Shown piece by piece: positions 6,310 through 31,738 of a stretch of 64,000 nt of DNA. This stretch comes from Rhodococcoides kroppenstedtii (GTDB lineage: Bacteria; Actinomycetota; Actinomycetes; Mycobacteriales; Mycobacteriaceae): NCBI RefSeq assembly GCF_900111805.1, contig NZ_FOJN01000009.1, positions 1 to 64,000 of the forward strand, read 5' to 3'. The position numbers and the translations under genes were made by a program. The notes under the pieces were generated by a model, which saw only the letters and a program-made list of their open reading frames with translations, had not been told where the DNA came from and made no database searches. How positions within the stretch are numbered: the stretch's first letter is position 1; each line of letters opens with the position of its first letter.

Positions 6310-8031
6310 ATGTTGCGCACCCCGGCAGCCGTGCCGACCCGCGATCGTATCGCCCGGTCGTCGCGTCGCGCCGTCGTGATGCTCATCGTCGTCGTGGGAT
6401 CCGCCGGAACCTTCTCCGCTCTGTCCGGCGAACTGCGCCCCGGCGGGCTCTGGGTCGTCGCCGCGGCATCCGCGACCACCATTCCCGTCGCGTACGCCTG
6501 GCGGCGGTGGTTCCGACGGTGGGACGCCATGGCACCCCTCTTCATCCTGTACTCCGACATCGGCATCACCGCGGTGCTGTTCAGCTTCGAGTCCTCCTGG
6601 GACGCCCTGCCCGGAGCCGTGCTGCTGATCCTCGTCTCGCTGTTCGGCGTGGTGTTCACCACCAGCCGGGTCCTCCGGATGCACATCGTGTTCTCCGTGG
6701 TGGTCACCCTGGTCCTGGCCGCCATGGCCGCCGACGAGGCCGACCCCATGCTGCTCGCCGCCCGCACCGTCACCATCCTGGGCGCCAGCACCACCCCGTT
6801 CCTGGTGCAGCTCTACGTCGCGTACCTGCGCGACCAGGTGTCGACCTCACGCCGCGACACCACGACCGGTCTGCTGAACCGCCGCGGCCTCGAAGCCGCC
6901 ATCGGCCAGGTCCAACAGTTGCGGACCGCCGACCTCACCATGGGCGTCGCCCTGATCCACGTCGCCCTCGAGGACATCGACGCCCGTCACGGGCGCACCA
7001 CCGCCAAGGAAGTGGTCGCCGAACTGACCGGGGCCTTGCGCGAGAGCGCCCCCGGCGCGCTGATCGCCCGCATTCGGCACGCCGAGTTCGCCTGCGTTCT
7101 GCTGGGCGGCGCCGACCGCGTGGCCGAGGACCTCGATGCCCTGCGTGACGACGTCGAATCCCTCCGGCTGCGCAGCGCGCCCACTCCGCTGACGTGCACG
7201 ACGTCCCGCGCGCACCTCGGCGACGGCACCTCGCGCCTGGTGGTGCTGGGCCGACTGATCGCCTCGGCCTCGCTGGCGCGGTACTCCGGCACGCTCGAAG
7301 GCGACGAACGACGCCCGGAGCACGACCACCTCGTCGACCTCCTCGCCGACGGCGGCCCGACCATCGTGTTCCAACCCGTCGTCCGCGTGGGGGACGGAAC
7401 CGTGGCCGGATACGAGGCCCTCTCCCGCTTCCCGGCCGGCCACGGCACCCCGCAGACGTGGTTCGCCGACGCCGCCGCGGCCGGCCTGCAGACTCCCCTC
7501 GAGCTGGCGGCCGTGCAGCGCGCCGTGCTCGCCTCTCACCACCTCGAGCCGGACGCGTTCCTCGCCATCAACGTCTCCGCCGGCACCATCATGGCGGCGG
7601 ACCTCACTCGGCTGCTGCTGCCCCTGGCCACGCAGCGGCGGGTGATCGTCGAGATCACCGAACACGACCTGGTGCGCGACTACCACCAGCTCACCCTCGC
7701 CCTCGACGACCTGCGCGCCGCGGGCCTGTCCATTTCCGTCGACGACGTCGGCGCCGGCCACTCGGGCCTGCGTCAGCTGGTCGAGATCAAGCCGGACGTG
7801 GTCAAACTCGACGCCTCCATCGTCCGCGGCCTCGACCACGACCCCATGCGCCGCGCCGCCGCGAAGGCCCTCACCTCCTTCGCCGGTGACATCGGTGCGG
7901 AGTGCATCTACGAGGGCATCGAGACCGAGGACGAACTCGAGGCGGCCCGGGCCCTCGGCGCCGGCCTCGTCCAGGGCTTCCTCCTCGGCCGACCCACCGC
8001 CGTGCCCCTGTCCGTCGAACACACCGCCTGA
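6310..8031 (+). CDS. Membrane-anchored GGDEF-EAL protein, likely c-di-GMP phosphodiesterase
   Basis: A 573-residue protein: about six hydrophobic segments (residues 21-173), a GGDEF domain (about 180-330) and an EAL domain (about 340-565). The GGDEF active site is degenerate: the expected GGDEF position reads RHAEF (256-260), so cyclase activity is unlikely, although the DTTTGLLNRR entry motif remains. The EAL side is intact: Glu369 in YEAL, Asn421, Glu448, Asp478-Asp479, Lys499, Glu535 and Gln555. It should therefore hydrolyse cyclic di-GMP in response to a membrane signal. The ATG at 6310 follows GGAG at a long spacing; GTG 6301 is the alternative. Confidence 0.9.
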   Translation: MLRTPAAVPTRDRIARSSRRAVVMLIVVVGSAGTFSALSGELRPGGLWVVAAASATTIPVAYAWRRWFRRWDAMAPLFILYSDIGITAVLFSFESSWDALPGAVLLILVSLFGVVFTTSRVLRMHIVFSVVVTLVLAAMAADEADPMLLAARTVTILGASTTPFLVQLYVAYLRDQVSTSRRDTTTGLLNRRGLEAAIGQVQQLRTADLTMGVALIHVALEDIDARHGRTTAKEVVAELTGALRESAPGALIARIRHAEFACVLLGGADRVAEDLDALRDDVESLRLRSAPTPLTCTTSRAHLGDGTSRLVVLGRLIASASLARYSGTLEGDERRPEHDHLVDLLADGGPTIVFQPVVRVGDGTVAGYEALSRFPAGHGTPQTWFADAAAAGLQTPLELAAVQRAVLASHHLEPDAFLAINVSAGTIMAADLTRLLLPLATQRRVIVEITEHDLVRDYHQLTLALDDLRAAGLSISVDDVGAGHSGLRQLVEIKPDVVKLDASIVRGLDHDPMRRAAAKALTSFAGDIGAECIYEGIETEDELEAARALGAGLVQGFLLGRPTAVPLSVEHTA

Positions 8032-23587: not shown

Positions 23588-24226
23588 TCAATTCTTTCGC
23601 CCACTGACGAAGAAAACGATTCTGGACGCGACATCCACGATTTGATCGGCATACCGCTCGAAATACCGTCCCAGCAACGCCACGTCGACCGCATTGACGA
23701 CATCCGGTCCGTCCTCGGCCACCACCCGGCCCACAACGACCGACTTGAGTTCGTCCACCCGATCGTCCATTCGATCGAGGTCCTCGACGTGCTCGAGCTC
23801 GCTCGACCGCAATGCCGCCACGATGCGCTCGCACATCTCCAGGCACAGTCGCGCCATTTCCTCGAACGGCTCGATCAGATCGGTGGGAACGATCGGCTCG
23901 GGAAAGCGGCGCCGCGCCGCCTCCGCGATGTGAACGGACAGACCGACCATTCTCGCGAGGTCGCTGCTGATCCGCACGGCGGAGAAGACCCGGCGGAGAT
24001 CCGCGGCCACCGGCGCCTGGAGGGCCAGCACCTTGACGGCCTCGTCCTCGCAACGGGTGCCGAGTTCGGCCAGCGCCTCTCCGCGCGCGATGACCTCCTC
24101 CGCGGCCCGGAGATCGGCGTCGAGCAGCGCCCGACTGGCCCGCCGCATCGCCTCCTCGGCGCCGGTGGCCAGCTCGCACAGATCGGCGTTCAGATCGCCC
24201 AGCTGGGCGGTGTAAGCATTTCTCAT
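23588..24226 (-). CDS. phoU: Phosphate signalling complex protein PhoU
   Basis: A 212-residue all-helical protein with the two PhoU repeats. The N-terminal repeat includes MRNAYTAQLGDLNADL and ADLRRVFSAVRISSDLARMV; the C-terminal one includes EDLDRMDDRVDELKS and VALLGRYFERYADQIVDVAS with the acidic E-R-Y-D metal-binding pattern. PhoU represses the phosphate regulon with PstB and PhoR. No pst, phoR or phoP gene is in this window, so it is an isolated copy, as in the phoY genes of mycobacteria. The 167-bp region to its left is relatively AT-rich and contains the promoter of the sugar transferase. Confidence 0.9.
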   Translation of the reverse strand: MRNAYTAQLGDLNADLCELATGAEEAMRRASRALLDADLRAAEEVIARGEALAELGTRCEDEAVKVLALQAPVAADLRRVFSAVRISSDLARMVGLSVHIAEAARRRFPEPIVPTDLIEPFEEMARLCLEMCERIVAALRSSELEHVEDLDRMDDRVDELKSVVVGRVVAEDGPDVVNAVDVALLGRYFERYADQIVDVASRIVFFVSGRKN

Positions 24227-24370: not shown

Positions 24371-25636
24371 TCACACGAGACCGAGAGCGCGCACGTCGGC
24401 CGCGGGCACAGCGCGAGAGTAGAGGAAACCCTGGACCAGCGTGCACCCATTGTGCCGCGCCGACCTCGCCTGTTCCTCCGTCTCGATCCCCTCGACCACC
24501 ACGCTGCGCTCGGTCACCGAGGCGAAGCCCGTCAACGCGCCCACCAAAGTGTCGCCGTCCGGCGAGCCCATGCGGTGGCTCAGGGCCTTGTCCACCTTGA
24601 ATCCGTCGACGGGCAGCTCCATCAGACGTTCGAGGCTCGAATGACCGGTCCCCAGATCGTCCAACACCACGCGATAACCCCGCAGTCGGAGATCCCGCAC
24701 GAAGGCCACCGCCCGCGGCGAGTCCGTATAGGACCGGGTCTCGGTCAATTCGAAGACGACGCGCTGCGGCGGCACCGCCGACGCGGCGACGATCTCGTCG
24801 AGCTGCTCGACGGACCTGGCCACCCCGAGATGCCGAGCGCAGAGGTTGACGTGGAGATCGAGCGTCGGCACGTCGGTCAGCCATTCAGCGAACGCCGCCA
24901 GCGCGCCGGCGAGCACCGTGTGATCGACGTCGATCTCGAGGTCGGTGTCGGCGACGGCGGAGAAGAAATCCTCCGGCGGCACCACGTCGACACCGGTACG
25001 CGTCGGCCGCAGCAGACGCGCCAGCGCCTCGAACGCGACGACGTCTCCGGAGTCGAGATCGACGATGGGCTGGAACCACGGGACGATCTCGCCCTCGCCC
25101 AGGACCGCGCCGGGACCGCGGGGCGCCCACGTCGACCGACCGTGCCCGCGGATCGCGTCGAGGTGCGACTCCACCAGGCGCGCGAAGTCGGACAACGTCG
25201 ACAGGACGTAGTCACCGGCGGGATGCGGCTCGGTGTCGACGACGCACAGCGTCCCGATCACCAACCCCTCCCGCCCCACGAGCGGTACGGCGACGTAGGA
25301 CCGGTACTCGAGTCGCACCAGGTTGGCCGCCGCGGCGGCGACCAACGGGTCCGTCGACCGCGCCTCCCGACGGCTGTCGCTGATCGCGACGGGCCGACCC
25401 GCGTCGACGACGAGGGCGCAGGTGGCGTCGTCGCGGGGCATCACGGTCGGACCTCGATCGCCGTGCTTGGCGACGGTGTACTGCCGGTCCTCGTCGATGA
25501 TGTTCACCATGGCGGTGGCGAAGCCCAGGGTGGTGGCCGCCAGCGACAGCAGGGTGTCGAGCGACGGGTCCTCGACGGAGAAGTCGACGTAGTTTCGTGC
25601 CGACTCGCTGCGACGGCGCTGCGCCGTTCTGAACAT
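24371..25636 (-). CDS. GAF-EAL protein, likely cytosolic c-di-GMP phosphodiesterase
   Basis: A 421-residue soluble protein: a GAF sensor domain at about 20-160 and an EAL domain at about 180-415. Catalytic residues look complete: Glu203 (FEAL), Asn264 (HVNLC), Glu296 (FELTET), Asp326-Asp327 (LDDLGTG), Lys347, Glu382 (EGIETE) and Gln402 (VQGF). The GAF could sense a small ligand or light-independent redox state; it has DRQYTVAKHGDRG, often seen in free-standing bacterial GAFs. It is divergent from the RsbW-like gene. This is the second EAL protein of the window, with no cyclase partner nearby. Confidence 0.9.
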   Translation of the reverse strand: MFRTAQRRRSESARNYVDFSVEDPSLDTLLSLAATTLGFATAMVNIIDEDRQYTVAKHGDRGPTVMPRDDATCALVVDAGRPVAISDSRREARSTDPLVAAAAANLVRLEYRSYVAVPLVGREGLVIGTLCVVDTEPHPAGDYVLSTLSDFARLVESHLDAIRGHGRSTWAPRGPGAVLGEGEIVPWFQPIVDLDSGDVVAFEALARLLRPTRTGVDVVPPEDFFSAVADTDLEIDVDHTVLAGALAAFAEWLTDVPTLDLHVNLCARHLGVARSVEQLDEIVAASAVPPQRVVFELTETRSYTDSPRAVAFVRDLRLRGYRVVLDDLGTGHSSLERLMELPVDGFKVDKALSHRMGSPDGDTLVGALTGFASVTERSVVVEGIETEEQARSARHNGCTLVQGFLYSRAVPAADVRALGLV

Positions 25637-25899: not shown

Positions 25900-26340
25900 A
25901 TGACGGCAGGGCTCGCGCAGCACACGGACACCGCGGAGGCGATGCCCGCCCCCGAATTCGCCCTGGTCGACATCCCGGCCGAACCCCGGCGGCTGTCGTC
26001 CGTGCGTACCGACGTCCAGCGCTGGCTCGAGACCCACGGGATCGACGACGAGCGATGTCAGGACATCACGCTGGCGACCTACGAGGCGCTGGCCAACAGC
26101 GTCGAGCACGCGTATTGCAGCGACGCCGCCCGTGACGACGCCTGCACCGTGACGCTGCACGCCGTGGTGACCGACAGCCGCACCGTTGCCGTCGACGTCG
26201 CCGATCACGGCCGGTGGATGGACCACGAGGACGATCCGCGACGGGGGCGAGGACTTCCGCTCATCCACGCGCTGGCCGACCACGCCACCGTCGACACCTC
26301 GTCGGAGGGGACCGTCGTGACGATGCGCTGGCACCTGTAG
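25900..26340 (+). CDS. RsbW-like anti-sigma factor kinase (HATPase domain)
   Basis: A 146-residue single GHKL ATPase domain. The N box is ITLATYEALANSVEHAY, the G1 box is VAVDVADHGRWMD and the G2 box is RRGRGLPLIHALADH. This is the serine-kinase fold that binds sigma-B/F-type factors and phosphorylates STAS antagonists. The ATG at 25900 was chosen because the long N-terminal extension crosses the promoter region. Neither a sigma factor nor a STAS gene is adjacent; a STAS protein is encoded 15 kb away at 41535. Confidence 0.87.
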   Translation: MTAGLAQHTDTAEAMPAPEFALVDIPAEPRRLSSVRTDVQRWLETHGIDDERCQDITLATYEALANSVEHAYCSDAARDDACTVTLHAVVTDSRTVAVDVADHGRWMDHEDDPRRGRGLPLIHALADHATVDTSSEGTVVTMRWHL

Positions 26341-26427
26341 CTGCCGCGCGAGTTCTGCCACACGATCGAGATCGAATCCGCGGATCCGCTGATGCCGGCG
26401 AGACAATGCGGGAAAACTCGCACGGGC

Positions 26428-27312
26428 CTACGACGCGGACGCGAACCGGTGCTGCGCCGAGACGGTCCGCGCCGCCAGTACCGCCGCTCCCCGCGCCGCC
26501 AGTGACTGCGGCTCCGCGGGCATGACCAGCGCTTCGCCCCACTGCTGCGCGAACACGCCCCGCACGAGCGGCAGGTTGGCCGGCCCACCCACCAGCACCA
26601 CCGTGTCCACGCGGCGTCGGCCGCGAGCCACCACGTCGTACACCCACGACGACACCGCGGTCACCGCATCGAGCACCAGGCGATCGACCGTCGTCCGGAA
26701 CACCGTCACCGATCCGCCGAGGAACGGGCCACCCACCTGCACCGCACGGTGCACCGCAAGCATCTCCAGAGCCCATTCGACTCCGTCGTCGAGAGTGGCG
26801 TCGGCGCTCGGGGTGCGCGGGGCGGACGTGCCGTAGGCCGAGAGCAGGTGTTCGCGAACGGCTGCGGCCACCGTGGCTCCGCGGAACGCGTCCGACCACT
26901 CGGCGTCGTGCACGATCCCGCTGCCGACGTCGACCACGGACACCGACGTCCCGGACTTCCCGATGTCGACCACCGCGATCGTGGACTGAGGTTCCACCAA
27001 CCCGCGCAGAGTCAGGTAGGTCAGCTGGGCGCCGAGCTCCGACGCGACCCGCACGCACCCACCCTCGTGCAGAACGGTCGCGGCGGACCCGACCCGGCAG
27101 CGCGGATCGTCCGGGACGACCAGGACAGCGCTCTCGCGGTTGCCGGCGTGACGTGCGCAGACCGAATCGACGATCTCCACCGCGGCCTCGAGCCGGTCAC
27201 GCCCCCGAGGAACCGTGACCGACTCGGTGCCGAGCAGCGCACGACCCATCGGGTCCATGATCGCCGCACGAACTGCGGATGCACCGAGAGAGACCCCCAC
27301 CACTGCTCGCAT
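26428..27312 (-). CDS. Hsp70-fold ATPase-like protein without substrate-binding domain
   Basis: A 294-residue protein with the actin/Hsp70 nucleotide-binding fold: phosphate-1 strand VVGVSLGASAVRAAIMD, phosphate-2 motif VVDIGKSGTSVSVVD (about 114-128, like the DLGGGT of Hsp70) and adenosine motif VVLVGGPANLP (about 238-248). It stops there, so it lacks the peptide-binding domain of DnaK. It is last in a same-strand row with the two tail-bearing proteins at 27421 and 28558 and has no transmembrane helix itself. Most likely a cytosolic partner of the anchored pair; function unknown. Confidence 0.75.
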   Translation of the reverse strand: MRAVVGVSLGASAVRAAIMDPMGRALLGTESVTVPRGRDRLEAAVEIVDSVCARHAGNRESAVLVVPDDPRCRVGSAATVLHEGGCVRVASELGAQLTYLTLRGLVEPQSTIAVVDIGKSGTSVSVVDVGSGIVHDAEWSDAFRGATVAAAVREHLLSAYGTSAPRTPSADATLDDGVEWALEMLAVHRAVQVGGPFLGGSVTVFRTTVDRLVLDAVTAVSSWVYDVVARGRRRVDTVVLVGGPANLPLVRGVFAQQWGEALVMPAEPQSLAARGAAVLAARTVSAQHRFASAS

Positions 27313-27420
27313 CTGCCCGCCCCGTGTCGTCGCCCTGCGCCGTCGGGACGAGCTTAAACCTGCACGGCGGATGCACCGTGCCCAATTTGTGGAGTTTTGG
27401 TTTGTTTCACTACCCGGCGT

Positions 27421-28518
27421 TCACTCGCCGTCGGTGGACTCGTCGTTCGGCCCCGGGTCGGGCTCGGGCTCGTTCGGGGTGGAAGGCTCGGTGTCAGAGG
27501 GCTCGGCCGTCACGACGGGCGGGTCGACCGTCGTGCTGCCACCGCCGGTGCTGGGCGTCCCGCCGCCGGTACCGGGCGAGCCGGTGCCGGGGGTTCCGGT
27601 GCTCCCGCCGCCTCCCCCGGTTCCACCGCCGGACGTGCCACCGCCCGAGGCGCCGCCACCGCCCGACGTGCCCCCGCTCGACGAGCCTCCGCCCGACGAG
27701 GTGCCACCACCCGACGAGGGCGACCCGCCGGCGGACTGTGGGCGCGGCACGGACGGCGCATCGGGACGCGCCGCCTGCGACCCCGGGGGCGCGGGCACGG
27801 CGAGGCGAGGCTCGACCGCTCCGGCAACCCCACCGACTCCGGACTCCGCGTTCTCGCTCCCGGGGGCCGACGACGGTGCCGGCGCGCTCGACGGCGGCGT
27901 CGCGACGCCGGGGGTCGACGGGGCGTCGGTGCCGGCCGTTCCGTCCGATCCGTCGGACGTCGCGGACTCGACCGCACCGGGCGCCGGCTCCGACACCACA
28001 CGGGGTGCGGTGGTGGCGGCCCACACCGTGACGGACGCCGCGATCAGCGCGGCGGCGACGCCCGCTCCGACGACCGCCATGCCGCGCCGCCGCGGCGAGG
28101 CGGGCGGCGGCGCATCGGGCGCGTCGGGAATCAGCACGGGGGCGGCCACGGTCGCGCCACGATCAGCCCACAGCGCCGCGTCCACCGGTGCGCCGTACCG
28201 ACCGTCGGGGTCGACGCTCGACAGACTGTCGAGATCGACGAGCGCGACATCGGCGAGCAGGTGGTGCTCGAGTGCGCGAGACACGCTGTGCCACAGGGAC
28301 GGATCGCCGAGCGCGACGGCGGTGCGATGCACGCCGAGGTCGGCACGCTTGGCCCGCAACGACATGACGCCGATCGCGGCGGCGACCGCGTCGCCGACGT
28401 CCCCGTCGCCGAGACGGGTGGTCCGCTCGTCCACCGGGCCGAGCTGCGGCAGGTCCACGTCGACGAGGGCGGCCGTGACGGAGTCCTCGTCGACGACGAC
28501 CCCTAGGGCGATGTGCAT
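27421..28518 (-). CDS. Membrane-anchored protein with DUF7159-like domain and Gly/Ser/Pro-rich tail
   Basis: A 365-residue protein. Residues 1-130 form a compact domain starting ALGVVVDEDSVTAALVDVD, similar in style to the ATPase-fold start of its neighbours and, as I recall, to DUF7159 proteins of mycobacteria. A membrane helix is at about 147-169. The remainder is a low-complexity tail rich in Pro, Ser, Gly and Ala, including a long SSGGG/SGGGT array, ending in acidic residues. With the positive RRR before the helix, the tail should face outward. Its job is unknown; a cell-wall-spanning tether is possible. Confidence 0.7.
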   Translation of the reverse strand: MHIALGVVVDEDSVTAALVDVDLPQLGPVDERTTRLGDGDVGDAVAAAIGVMSLRAKRADLGVHRTAVALGDPSLWHSVSRALEHHLLADVALVDLDSLSSVDPDGRYGAPVDAALWADRGATVAAPVLIPDAPDAPPPASPRRRGMAVVGAGVAAALIAASVTVWAATTAPRVVSEPAPGAVESATSDGSDGTAGTDAPSTPGVATPPSSAPAPSSAPGSENAESGVGGVAGAVEPRLAVPAPPGSQAARPDAPSVPRPQSAGGSPSSGGGTSSGGGSSSGGTSGGGGASGGGTSGGGTGGGGGSTGTPGTGSPGTGGGTPSTGGGSTTVDPPVVTAEPSDTEPSTPNEPEPDPGPNDESTDGE

Positions 28519-28557
28519 GCGCGCAGCCTTCCGTGACCGCTGGTGACGATGTCCATG

Positions 28558-30075
28558 TCAGTGAGTGGGGGTGGTGGTGGGCTTCGGGGGAGCCGACGAC
28601 GTGCTGGGGCGAACGGTCGTGGTCGCCGCCGGCGGGGATGTGGTCGCCGATGTGCCGGGCGCCGAGGTCGAGGCCGGGGGACGCGGCGTCGGGTCGTCGT
28701 CACGGTCGCGGGTGGGCGTGGTGTCCCGGCCACCGCCCCCGTTCGCCGCCGAGGACCGTCCGGGCCCGCTGGGGCCGCCCGCGGCGGGCGCAGTGTCCGG
28801 TCGCGCCGACGACGGCGCCGAAGCGGACGGCTGCCGCGGATCGGTCGACGTGGTCACCGACGGGGGCGAGGTGACGGTGCCGGCGACGTCCGTCAGGGGG
28901 AGGGTGGGGGCCGTCGTGGCCGTCGTGGTGTCGGTCGACGTCGGTGCCGGCGCGGCGCCTTGCGGGCGGGTCTGCGCGGGGGTGGCGTCGGGCGTCGACA
29001 CACCCGAGGTGGCCACGACGCGATCCGTCGCACGGACGTCGACCGGTACGCGCTCCGACGCCCCCGCCGCCGCGCCCAGGGTGGCGACGGCCACCAGGGC
29101 CGCGGTTCCGGCGACGGCGGCGACCCGCGGGGATCGGCGTCGCTCGGCCGCAGCGTGGGCGCCGATCGGCGCCGGACCGGTCTCCACCGCTTCTGCAGCG
29201 GGGCGCTCGACCACCGGAACCCGTTGTGCGGGAATGCTTCGCGGCGCCGCGAAGAGCCGGGCCGACGGGATCACGGTGGACAGGTTGGCGGCGCCCATTG
29301 CCGAGAACGCAGCGGGGTGCCGCGGCGCGCGGACCGGGGCGGCGGTGCGGTGGGCGATGACGTCGACCACCGACGTCGACTCCGCGCACCCACCGACCAG
29401 CAGCACGACCTGCGCGCCGAGGCGCACCGCGTCGTCGATCAGGGGTTGGACGCGCACCGCACAGTCGGCCACGATGGCGTCGAACTCGCTGCGGCGCAGG
29501 CGAACCGGGTCGGTCACGAACGGTCCGGACAGATCGACGGCCCGCTCGGTCCCCAGCATGCGCACGGCCCGATCGGCGGCCGCGGCGAGGCCGGCCATCT
29601 CGGCGGACCCGCCGCGCTCGGCAGCACCGTAGGTGGACCAGAGGTACGAGGTGACGGCCATGGTGAGGGCGTCGCCGGAGAATTCGTCGGTGCCGACACT
29701 GGAGATCAGACGCCCGGTCAGCGTGTCCAGCAGGTGGATTCGCGTGCCCACGCGGCCGACGTCGACCACCGCGATCACCCGCGCGTCGTCGACGCATCCC
29801 TCGACTCGGGCCGCCGCGAGGAACGCGTCGCACTCCCCGACCAGGCGCACTCCGCCGCGGCCGACCCAGTCCTCGGGATCGCCGCCGATCGCCATGACCG
29901 GCGCGTCGTGACCCGCGGCCGCAGCCAACTCCAGGGCGGCGTCGCACGCGTTGTCCAATGCCCGGTCCATGGACACGGGGCGTTCGGTCACCGCGAGCAA
30001 CTCGCCGGTCTCGGACACCGTCGCGCCGCGGACGACGCCGGTGCTCATCGTGACACCGAACAATTGGGCTGGCAT
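28558..30075 (-). CDS. Hsp70-fold membrane protein with Pro/Thr-rich tail (Rv0312-like)
   Basis: A 505-residue protein. Residues 1-275 follow the Hsp70/actin plan: LFGVTMSTGVVRGATV, phosphate-2 IAVVDVGRVGTRIHLLD (101-117) and adenosine-site VVLLVGGCAEST. A basic ERRRSPR precedes a single helix at about 317-338. The last 165 residues are Thr, Ser, Pro and Ala rich and should be outside the cell. The layout resembles mycobacterial proline/threonine-rich Rv0312 as I remember it. It is probably the first gene of a three-gene unit, 95 bp downstream of dcd. The Asp and Gly of the phosphate loops are kept, so ATP binding is plausible. Confidence 0.75.
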   Translation of the reverse strand: MPAQLFGVTMSTGVVRGATVSETGELLAVTERPVSMDRALDNACDAALELAAAAGHDAPVMAIGGDPEDWVGRGGVRLVGECDAFLAAARVEGCVDDARVIAVVDVGRVGTRIHLLDTLTGRLISSVGTDEFSGDALTMAVTSYLWSTYGAAERGGSAEMAGLAAAADRAVRMLGTERAVDLSGPFVTDPVRLRRSEFDAIVADCAVRVQPLIDDAVRLGAQVVLLVGGCAESTSVVDVIAHRTAAPVRAPRHPAAFSAMGAANLSTVIPSARLFAAPRSIPAQRVPVVERPAAEAVETGPAPIGAHAAAERRRSPRVAAVAGTAALVAVATLGAAAGASERVPVDVRATDRVVATSGVSTPDATPAQTRPQGAAPAPTSTDTTTATTAPTLPLTDVAGTVTSPPSVTTSTDPRQPSASAPSSARPDTAPAAGGPSGPGRSSAANGGGGRDTTPTRDRDDDPTPRPPASTSAPGTSATTSPPAATTTVRPSTSSAPPKPTTTPTH

Positions 30076-30170
30076 GAGTCACCACCATCGGTCGTGAATA
30101 CGGACAGACCGATAGTACGGGCTCAAACCGGGCGTATCAACGTAATGTCCGGATGAAACCGACCGAAAGT

Positions 30171-30737
30171 CTAGGTTCGGAAGTTCAAGTAGGCCTTCGA
30201 GGGCGTCGGGCCGCGTTGTCCCTGGTACTTCGATCCGAGCGTCGACGAACCGTACGGCCGCTCGGCCGGGCTGGACAGCCTGAACAGGCACAACTGGCCG
30301 ATCTTCATGCCCGGCCAGAGGGTGATCGGCAGGTTGGCCACGTTGGACAGCTCCAACGTGATGTGGCCACTGAAACCGGGGTCGATGAACCCCGCCGTCG
30401 AATGTGTGAGGAGTCCCAGACGTCCCAGGCTCGACTTGCCTTCGAGGCGACCCGCGAGATCGTCCGGCAGGGTGATCGCCTCCAGCGTCGACCCCAGCAC
30501 GAACTCGCCCGGATGCAGCACGAAGGGCTCGCCCTCGCCCGGCTCCACCAGCGTCGTCAGATCGTCCTGCTGCTGCTTCGGATCGATGTGGGTGTACTTC
30601 GAGTTGACGAACACCCGGAACAGCGAATCCAGCCGCACGTCCACGCTCGACGGCTGCACCATCGACTCGTCGAACGGGTCGACACCCAGTCGCCCGGCCG
30701 TCACCTCGGCCCTGATGTCACGATCGGAAAGCAGCAC
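30171..30737 (-). CDS. dcd: dCTP deaminase, probably bifunctional with dUTPase activity
   Basis: A 188-residue homotrimeric enzyme of the Dcd/Dut superfamily. It deaminates dCTP to dUTP and, in the actinobacterial bifunctional form, goes on to dUMP for thymidylate synthesis. Motifs: MLLSDRDI start, [10 protein letters not shown] (28-37), [12 protein letters not shown] (99-110), [16 protein letters not shown] (115-130) with catalytic Glu129, and MKIGQLCLF. The C-terminal [19 protein letters not shown] loop closes over the nucleotide. GTG 30737 matches the family start. It is divergent from the tRNA-Gly gene. Confidence 0.95.
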
Positions 30738-30807
30738 GCGGCCAGGCTACTGACCCGCCGCGACCTCCTGATAGCCTGGGCGCTGCACGGCCCCACCGGT
30801 CGCGCGC

Positions 30808-30881
30808 GCCGATGTAGTTCAATGGCAGAACATCAGCTTCCCAAGCTGAATACGCGGGTTCGATTCCCGTCATCGGCTCCA
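30808..30881 (+). tRNA. tRNA-Gly (anticodon CCC)
   Basis: A full cloverleaf can be folded: acceptor stem GCCGATG with CATCGGC, D arm GTTC...GAAC, anticodon stem TCAGC with GCTGA around loop TTCCCAA, and T arm CGGGTTCGATTCCCG. The anticodon is CCC (30840-30842), reading GGG glycine codons. The 3' CCA is encoded in the DNA (30879-30881). Confidence 0.95.
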
Positions 30882-30931
30882 CCGGCCCCTCTCATCCGGC
30901 CCCGTTCCCGCCGCGCCCGTACGCTGCGCGC

Positions 30932-31738
30932 ATGACCGAACGCGTCGTCTCCGCCCGCCTCGATCTCGAGGTCACCGATCCCACCACGCTCGAACTGCAG
31001 ATCGCGGTGGCTCCACTGCCGGGTGCGGACGTCGTCGACACGCTGTCGATCACCGTCGACGGCGAGCCCGCCGAGGTGACCGAGTTCGCCGGATCCCACG
31101 GCACGCGGGTGCACCGACTGCCCGTGAAGAGCGGGAAGGTTCTGGTGCAGTACGACGCCACCGTCACCGGACTCGCCGATCCCGCCCCGACCACCGAGCT
31201 CGAACGCGCCATCTACCTGCGGCCGAGCCGCTACGCCGAGGCGGACAAGTTCTTCGGGTTCGCCGCCACCGAGTTCGGCAGCATCGAGGACGACGCGGAC
31301 GTGGTGACCGCCGTCGCCGACTGGGTGGGTGCCCGGCTCAGCTACGTGCCCGGCAGCAGCGACCCCATCGACGGGGCCGCGGACACACTCCTGGCCGGGG
31401 CCGGCGTCTGCCGCGACTACGCCCACCTGGTCGTGGCGATGCTCCGCGCGCTGAACGTGCCGGCCCGACTGGTCGCCGTTTACGCCCCCGGGTGCGATCC
31501 GATGGACTTCCACGCCGTCGTCGAGGCGATGGTGGGTGACCGGTGGCTGGTGGTCGACTCGACGGCGCTGGCCCCGCGGCAGACGCTGGTGCGGATCGCC
31601 ACGGGACGGGACGCCGCCGACACGGCCTTCCTGACCAACTACCGCGGCGCGATGACGCTGAACTCCTCCGAAGTGACCGCCGTGGTGACGGAGGGACTGC
31701 CCGTCGACGACGGCAGGGAGGCCGTGGTCCTGCGCTGA
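30932..31738 (+). CDS. Transglutaminase-like cysteine protease family protein
   Basis: A 268-residue protein with an N-terminal beta-rich region (1-90, the Bact_transglu_N type) and a transglutaminase core. The catalytic triad is visible as Cys160 in GAGVCRDYAH, His194 in DFHAVVEA and Asp209 in WLVVDST. No signal peptide, so probably cytosolic. Members act as peptidases or crosslinkers with unknown substrates in most bacteria. It lies between tRNA-Gly and a lipase on the same strand, 83 bp before the latter. Confidence 0.88.
   Translation: MTERVVSARLDLEVTDPTTLELQIAVAPLPGADVVDTLSITVDGEPAEVTEFAGSHGTRVHRLPVKSGKVLVQYDATVTGLADPAPTTELERAIYLRPSRYAEADKFFGFAATEFGSIEDDADVVTAVADWVGARLSYVPGSSDPIDGAADTLLAGAGVCRDYAHLVVAMLRALNVPARLVAVYAPGCDPMDFHAVVEAMVGDRWLVVDSTALAPRQTLVRIATGRDAADTAFLTNYRGAMTLNSSEVTAVVTEGLPVDDGREAVVLR

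Follow-up and report, generated by a model that had tools for sequence, protein, structure and literature searches.

A conserved three-gene module of degenerate Hsp70-type domains, whole and apparently halved, in Rhodococcoides kroppenstedtii

What purpose might be served by three adjacent Hsp70-like genes, two of which encode a predicted membrane helix followed by a low-complexity tail? The question is raised by a locus of Rhodococcoides kroppenstedtii (assembly GCF_900111805.1; genome of 4.08 Mb), found in the first 64,000 nucleotides (nt) of contig NZ_FOJN01000009.1, the stretch that we analysed and hereafter call the window. The named species closest to this genome by the proteins of the locus are Rhodococcoides corynebacterioides and R. 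kroppenstedtii itself. A previous annotation made from the letters alone (the sequence-only reading) had proposed three Hsp70/actin-fold proteins forming a signalling or scaffolding device of the mycolate cell envelope. It placed the genes at 28558, 27421 and 26428, running in one direction. We confirmed these three open reading frames (ORFs), here A, B and C, and their coordinates on the minus strand.

We find that A-B-C is a real, co-inherited, operon-like module under purifying selection. We hold its anatomy, as set out below, to be very probable. As to its role, we tentatively favour, with somewhat less than even confidence, a non-hydrolysing, membrane-attached scaffold of envelope biogenesis, built of whole and half Hsp70-type domains and with tails in the wall.

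Inheritance of the module

The three genes lie downstream of dcd in the order A, B, C, with gaps of 95 nt (dcd-A), 39 nt (A-B) and 108 nt (B-C). B was found in all 37 genus genomes searched, C within 4 kb downstream of B in 36 of them (the exception, G017, is an assembly of 690 contigs), and A within 6 kb upstream of B in at least 31. The arrangement dcd-A-B-C on one strand was seen in 16 of the 18 genus loci that we read in detail; the other two (L051 and L053) lack A. C is not always adjacent to B, and in L055 an ANTAR ORF lies between them. A second genus (G063, locus L062) has the trio together with an extra copy of A across dcd. The idea that the genes might be unlinked in all relatives, which the sequence-only reading had named as fatal to its proposal, fails on these counts. 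The gap between dcd and A holds a promoter-like site (30140-30112), one being found where shuffles predict 0.1. Its end lies 36 nt upstream of A, and six of six aligned loci, the window included, keep the core (TTG of the -35 element and a -10 element TA[CG]TRT). No terminator-like site was found in 26000-31000.

Relative to two close relatives, the ratio of nonsynonymous to synonymous substitution rates (dN/dS) was 0.07 (C), 0.15-0.22 (A, domain), 0.16-0.20 (B, domain) and 0.29-0.47 (tails). Could the genes nevertheless be functionless paralogs in decay? The degenerate catalytic positions described below would fit such an account, as would the absence of A from 2 of the 18 loci. However, the domain values of 0.07-0.22, the retention of B and of the B-C pair across the genus genomes and the conserved promoter-like site largely refute it. 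We rejected decay on the basis of dN/dS and retention, and regard it as very improbable.

In a phylogenetic tree (rows with more than 40% gaps dropped, 60 of 64 kept), the 19 A and 20 C sequences form sister clades with supports of 0.65 and 0.90, respectively, and a joint support of 0.98. The inner branching of the two clades is largely parallel. A and C are, by this tree, sister paralogs that have been kept together.

The space between A and B can be occupied. In three fascians-type loci read gene by gene (L055:7966-9432, L049 and L061), it holds a CYTH-CHAD-like ORF, for which Pfam was run on the copy of L055 only. CHAD domains are linked to polyphosphate. In L061, gene A (6781-7878) has a tail of 27 residues and its end overlaps the start of the CYTH-CHAD-like ORF.

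Hsp70 ancestry and catalytic positions of A and C

By profile homology, A and C descend from the nucleotide-binding domain of Hsp70 and lack its peptide-binding domain. C matches Pfam HSP70 (PF00012) over residues 109-281 with E 1.5e-7 and 30.5 bits, for a cut-off of 20.6. The window's A, taken alone, stays below threshold: it has no HSP70 match in Pfam, and its only DnaK match in NCBIfam has E 0.027. P0009, a relative 51% identical to A, matches Pfam HSP70 (4.9e-13, 48.6 bits). When a profile of 16 A/C-type domains was searched against the PDB, DnaK structures came first (best E 1.1e-23), and among the best 60 of 133 matches 59 were named as Hsp70-family and one was unnamed. Single-sequence searches of the PDB gave E 0.036 at best for C and no match for the domain of A alone, which is why the Hsp70 assignment is based on the Pfam match of C and on the profile of the family. 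On the count of named PDB matches, an origin of the MreB/FtsA type was set aside.

The same search bears on the possibility that the trio is an accessory part of an export machine, comparable to GspL/PilM (type II secretion, type IV pili) or to a protein associated with type VII secretion. GspL and PilM carry an actin-like domain on the cytoplasmic side of the membrane, and their plan of a cytoplasmic actin-like domain, one helix and an outer part matches that of the trio, in architecture only. Pfam also gave PilM_2 matches below the cut-off (0.062 for C and 5e-4 for P0009). However, the A/C profile prefers Hsp70, and neither PilM nor GspL appears among the best 60 of the 133 PDB matches. Moreover, the seven window neighbours scanned include no pilus or secretion gene, and the outer parts are of low complexity, not folded. 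We consider this explanation improbable.

The Hsp70 matches run to about position 375 of the profile and do not reach the peptide-binding region. A continues into its helix and low-complexity tail, and C stops after the domain. The peptide-binding domain of the Hsp70 chaperones is thus seen in neither, as the sequence-only reading had said of the first and third genes. At the other end, significant alignments to DnaK open at profile positions 22-62, which pair with DnaK residues beyond 80 and mostly near 120. Because of this late start, subdomain IB, which carries K70 in DnaK, appears to be missing from the A/C family.

We compared 39 A and C sequences with DnaK at residues of known role. D194, G196 and G342 are kept in all 39, and the position of E171 is E or D in 37. 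In contrast, the position of T199 is Gly in all 39 and D201 is kept in one. The position of D8 is S, T, A or V, and never Asp, in all 39, an equivalence based on a weak first alignment segment; the genome's own DnaK is gapped at that column. The Hsp70 catalytic set of D8, K70, E171, D194 and T199 is therefore not found as a set, the region of K70 being unaligned. In short, A and C resemble the DnaK domain in the sequence of lobe II, in the D-x-G of the second phosphate motif, in the Gly of the adenosine motif and, in most paralogs, in K270/S274. They differ from it in lacking D8, T199, the peptide-binding domain and apparently IB, and A differs also in its helix and tail. The proposal that both have the phosphate and adenosine motifs of the Hsp70 fold thus stands for ancestry, but the phosphate motifs are degenerate, and the term 'ATPase domain' is not supported, the catalytic positions being lost.

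Might A and C still be a nucleotide-dependent switch, which binds and perhaps slowly hydrolyses ATP, and signals its nucleotide state through the membrane or to a partner in the cytosol? Beyond the kept D194, G196, G342 and acidic E171 position, the adenine contacts count for a switch and against a non-hydrolysing scaffold: K270 and S274 are each kept in 14 of the 19 A sequences of the genus, and in 20 and 19, respectively, of 24 other paralogs. C keeps S274 in 13 of 20 sequences and K270 in none (it is R in 13). A further point is the 'ATP binding' given for MSMEG_0692, discussed below, in PMC11898655, which is an annotation and not an assay. The changes at T199 and D8 and the apparent loss of IB count against a switch, and the window's own proteins have V/G (A) and L/A (C) at K270/S274. 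As these and the catalytic positions are lost, hydrolysis of ATP by A and C is unlikely, and nucleotide binding by the window's own A and C is doubtful. Binding may persist in A proteins of the genus, most of which keep the adenine contacts, and in C proteins, which keep them in part. We consider a switch unlikely, and A, B and C are probably pseudo-ATPases.

The half-domain of B, helices and tails

B is the most unusual part of the trio. None of 17 B sequences has a Pfam match at E 0.1. When its N-terminal domain was aligned with the two lobes of the A/C family, lobe I matched over 91 columns (hhalign probability 92.4, E 5e-7), as opposed to a probability of 0.2% for lobe II; 30 column-shuffled profiles gave at most 1.2% and the reversed profile 0.6%. 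This match was obtained with B trimmed to its N-terminal domain and the 17 rows supplemented by 32 homologs, whereas an earlier comparison of full-length rows had aligned only 27 columns, with a probability of 30%. In the lobe profiles, rows with more than 35% gaps were dropped (58 and 59 of 63 kept). A PDB search with the B profile returned four matches, with a best E of 0.084 and none Hsp70-like. B thus looks like a lobe-I half-domain on a membrane helix. A two-lobed actin-like fold was not seen in it, so the claim of three Hsp70/actin-fold proteins is supported for A and C as to their Hsp70 ancestry, and has to be reduced to lobe I for B.

We also considered DUF7159 (PF23717), which precomputed annotation lists for proteins P0019-P0021. 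A dcd-adjacent ORF of 586 amino acids (aa) in another genus (L079) matches both DUF7159 (3.2e-22) and the half-domain profile of B (7.4e-7). In contrast, A, B and C themselves give no PF23717 match, and neither does P0020 in the Pfam release used.

Each of A and B has one predicted helix, with the N-terminus inside, followed by a low-complexity tail. The hydrophobic segment read as the helix is preceded by RRRSPR in A and by PRRRG in B. A second, weaker segment of A (223-241) lies inside the domain, at the adenosine motif, and was read as core. C has no hydrophobic segment. At the site of the helix, a segment with a mean hydropathy of at least 1.6 was found in 18 of 19 A sequences (the exception, L058, reaches 1.48) and in all 20 B sequences. 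The tails, put at 165-195 residues by the sequence-only reading, measure 169 (A, rich in proline, threonine and serine; P/T/S) and 200 (B, G/S/P-rich). Over the 19 A sequences, tail length ranges from 27 to 220 residues (median 150), and over the 20 B sequences from 123 to 213 (median 165). Tail length is not tightly conserved. The notion of a 'wall-reaching' tail is accordingly weakened as a requirement of length. A tail is present in 19/19 A and 20/20 B.

This presence, after the helix in every A and B measured, could also mean that the tails are what matters. The proteins would then be structural components of the surface or wall, i.e. anchors, spacers or adhesins, with inner domains that merely tether them. 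P/T/S-rich stretches are candidate targets of O-mannosylation. In addition, a PGLPPI-type motif occurs in the last 45 residues of 17 of 25 other members of the wider family (L046, L063, L065, L073, L084, L089 and L093 among them), with 3.8 expected by shuffling, for a pattern that was picked after reading the sequences. However, this outer-end motif is nearly absent from the trio itself (1/19 A, 0/20 C), selection is stronger on the domains than on the tails (dN/dS), C has no tail, and both length and composition of the tails vary widely. We regard a tail-centred role as quite unlikely.

Envelope context and the wider family

On the scaffold reading that we favour, the domains of A and B would lie at the cytoplasmic side of the membrane and, together with soluble C, form a mixed, non-hydrolysing platform for binding proteins, comparable to the actin-like domains that GspL or PilM have in the cytoplasm. 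The tails, reaching into the wall, would fasten or position this platform, which would most likely serve the polar envelope-building machinery of mycolate-bearing bacteria. Envelope biogenesis is favoured because of an entry in the FhaA interactome, a HadA/HadB neighbour and a near-restriction to mycolate-bearing bacteria.

HadA/HadB act in mycolic-acid synthesis, and in 13 of the 18 genus loci C is followed, at a distance of no more than about 160 nt, by a gene for a fused HadA/HadB dehydratase (E 2.2e-146). The interactome entry concerns MSMEG_0692/Rv0312. We presume that Rv0312 belongs to the family of the trio, likened to it by description only; it differs in being a single gene. FhaA is a protein of polar growth. 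In PMC11898655, Table 1 describes MSMEG_0692/Rv0312 as a 'conserved hypothetical proline and threonine-rich protein' of the membrane, with one transmembrane helix and 'ATP binding', a description that resembles the trio, and MSMEG_0692 is among 25 proteins (FhaA included) found only in FhaA complexes of M. smegmatis. PMC6528289 also lists Rv0312 as one of six hypothetical proteins that are essential and were matched to drug targets.

The third element is distribution. The wider family appears largely restricted to the window's GTDB family, Mycobacteriaceae, which we take to be the mycolate-bearing group. In a sample of 60 genomes of the class, matches at E 1e-24 or better occur in 4/4 genomes of that family and in 3/56 others, where the matching frames (654-1080 aa) may be other Hsp70s. 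The C profile matches in 29 of 41 family genomes, and a broad profile, which also catches apparent DnaK genes, in 61 of 61.

Several points weigh against the scaffold reading, besides the adenine contacts. HadA/HadB does not follow C in the window's clade (the window and L023-L027) or in L062, and the window genome has HadA/HadB on other contigs. The FhaA complexes were obtained from overexpressed FhaA with formaldehyde crosslinking (PMC11898655), and the FhaA link would reach the trio through a resemblance of description to MSMEG_0692. The topology of A and B is read from hydropathy and basic flanks only, the tail of A can be as short as 27 residues, and relatives give weak MreB, PilM and FGGY matches below the cut-off. 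The mycolate-envelope device of the sequence-only reading thus gains from the 13 loci with a HadA/HadB neighbour, but loses from its absence beside C in the window's own clade; by sequence, such a device could serve signalling as well as scaffolding.

A more specific form of the scaffold seems to us rather unlikely. Here C (whole), A (anchored) and B (an anchored half-domain pairing with or capping its paralogs) would make a composite actin-like scaffold. It would be the inner base of a complex that passes through the wall and organises the polar growth of the envelope in mycolate-bearing bacteria. If true, a dead chaperone fold would have been turned into the base of such a complex. More generally, with its adjacent genes and clean half-domain, the trio offers a compact and genetically tractable setting for asking if the Hsp70 fold has been reused as a non-catalytic envelope scaffold, and would turn the interactome entry MSMEG_0692 into a family-wide, testable idea. 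A library of open-licence papers, searched by related names only, yielded no paper on such a trio and none that names DUF7159. The arrangement is real and conserved, with no description found in these searches; the kind of protein is known but uncharacterised.

Genomes of the genus carry several Hsp70-like genes besides dnaK, and we found no report of their role. The C profile gave 4-10 matches per genome in 37 genus genomes, and the broad profile, DnaK included, 8-11 in each of the four searched. For example, the window genome, whose DnaK is at C7:100446, has further Hsp70-like genes with helix and tail at C7:86626 and C15:84771 (measured) and at C7:41311 and C7:59481 (by eye). The region G000:C7:81054-88434 holds a 602-aa Hsp70-like gene with helix and tail, 12 kb from dnaK. 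Beside it are two ORFs (83682-84779 and 82485-83549) with starts that are lobe-I-like by eye and that the family profiles missed. On plasmid pRoPD630_2 of Rhodococcus opacus PD630 (L094), an Hsp70-like gene, 51% identical to the paralog at C7:41311, adjoins a PAS-ANTAR gene and lies about 3 kb from gvpO.

Proximity to dcd extends beyond the genus. In 41 genomes we took the distance from dcd to the nearest gene of the wider family, after manual removal of hits that we took for DnaK and of those on other contigs. It is at most 10 kb in 13 genomes (3 of them from the window's genus), at most 20 kb in 16 and at most 40 kb in 22. Nocardia farcinica has a 470-aa family member 5 kb from dcd. The features of the locus are collected in Table 1.

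Table 1. Features of the module and its surroundings (window positions, unless a locus is named)
Feature	Position	Strand	Description or evidence
Gene A, 505 aa	28558..30075	-	Residues ~1-285, degenerate Hsp70-type nucleotide-binding domain; 318-336, predicted helix; then 169 aa of P/T/S-rich tail
Gene B, 365 aa	27421..28518	-	Residues ~1-130, putative lobe-I-only half-domain; 147-165, predicted helix; then 200 aa of G/S/P/T-rich tail
Gene C, 294 aa	26428..27312	-	Degenerate nucleotide-binding domain of the Hsp70 type, with neither predicted helix nor tail
Candidate promoter in the dcd-A gap, TTGATA-17-TACTAT	30112..30140	-	Motif search and alignment of loci
dcd, dCTP deaminase	30171..30737	-	Pfam DCD, E 2.5e-46; precedes the module, on its strand, in 18/18 genus loci read
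Fused HadA/HadB gene	L055:12181-13296		Model for L055; tblastn for the 12 other loci

Two further observations concern the surroundings of the module. ARAGORN calls a minus-strand tRNA-Gly(CCC) at 25055-25141, inside a GAF-EAL gene (24371-25636); this call is probably false, since a second tRNA-Gly(CCC) lies at 30808-30881. A PhoU gene is found at 23588-24226.

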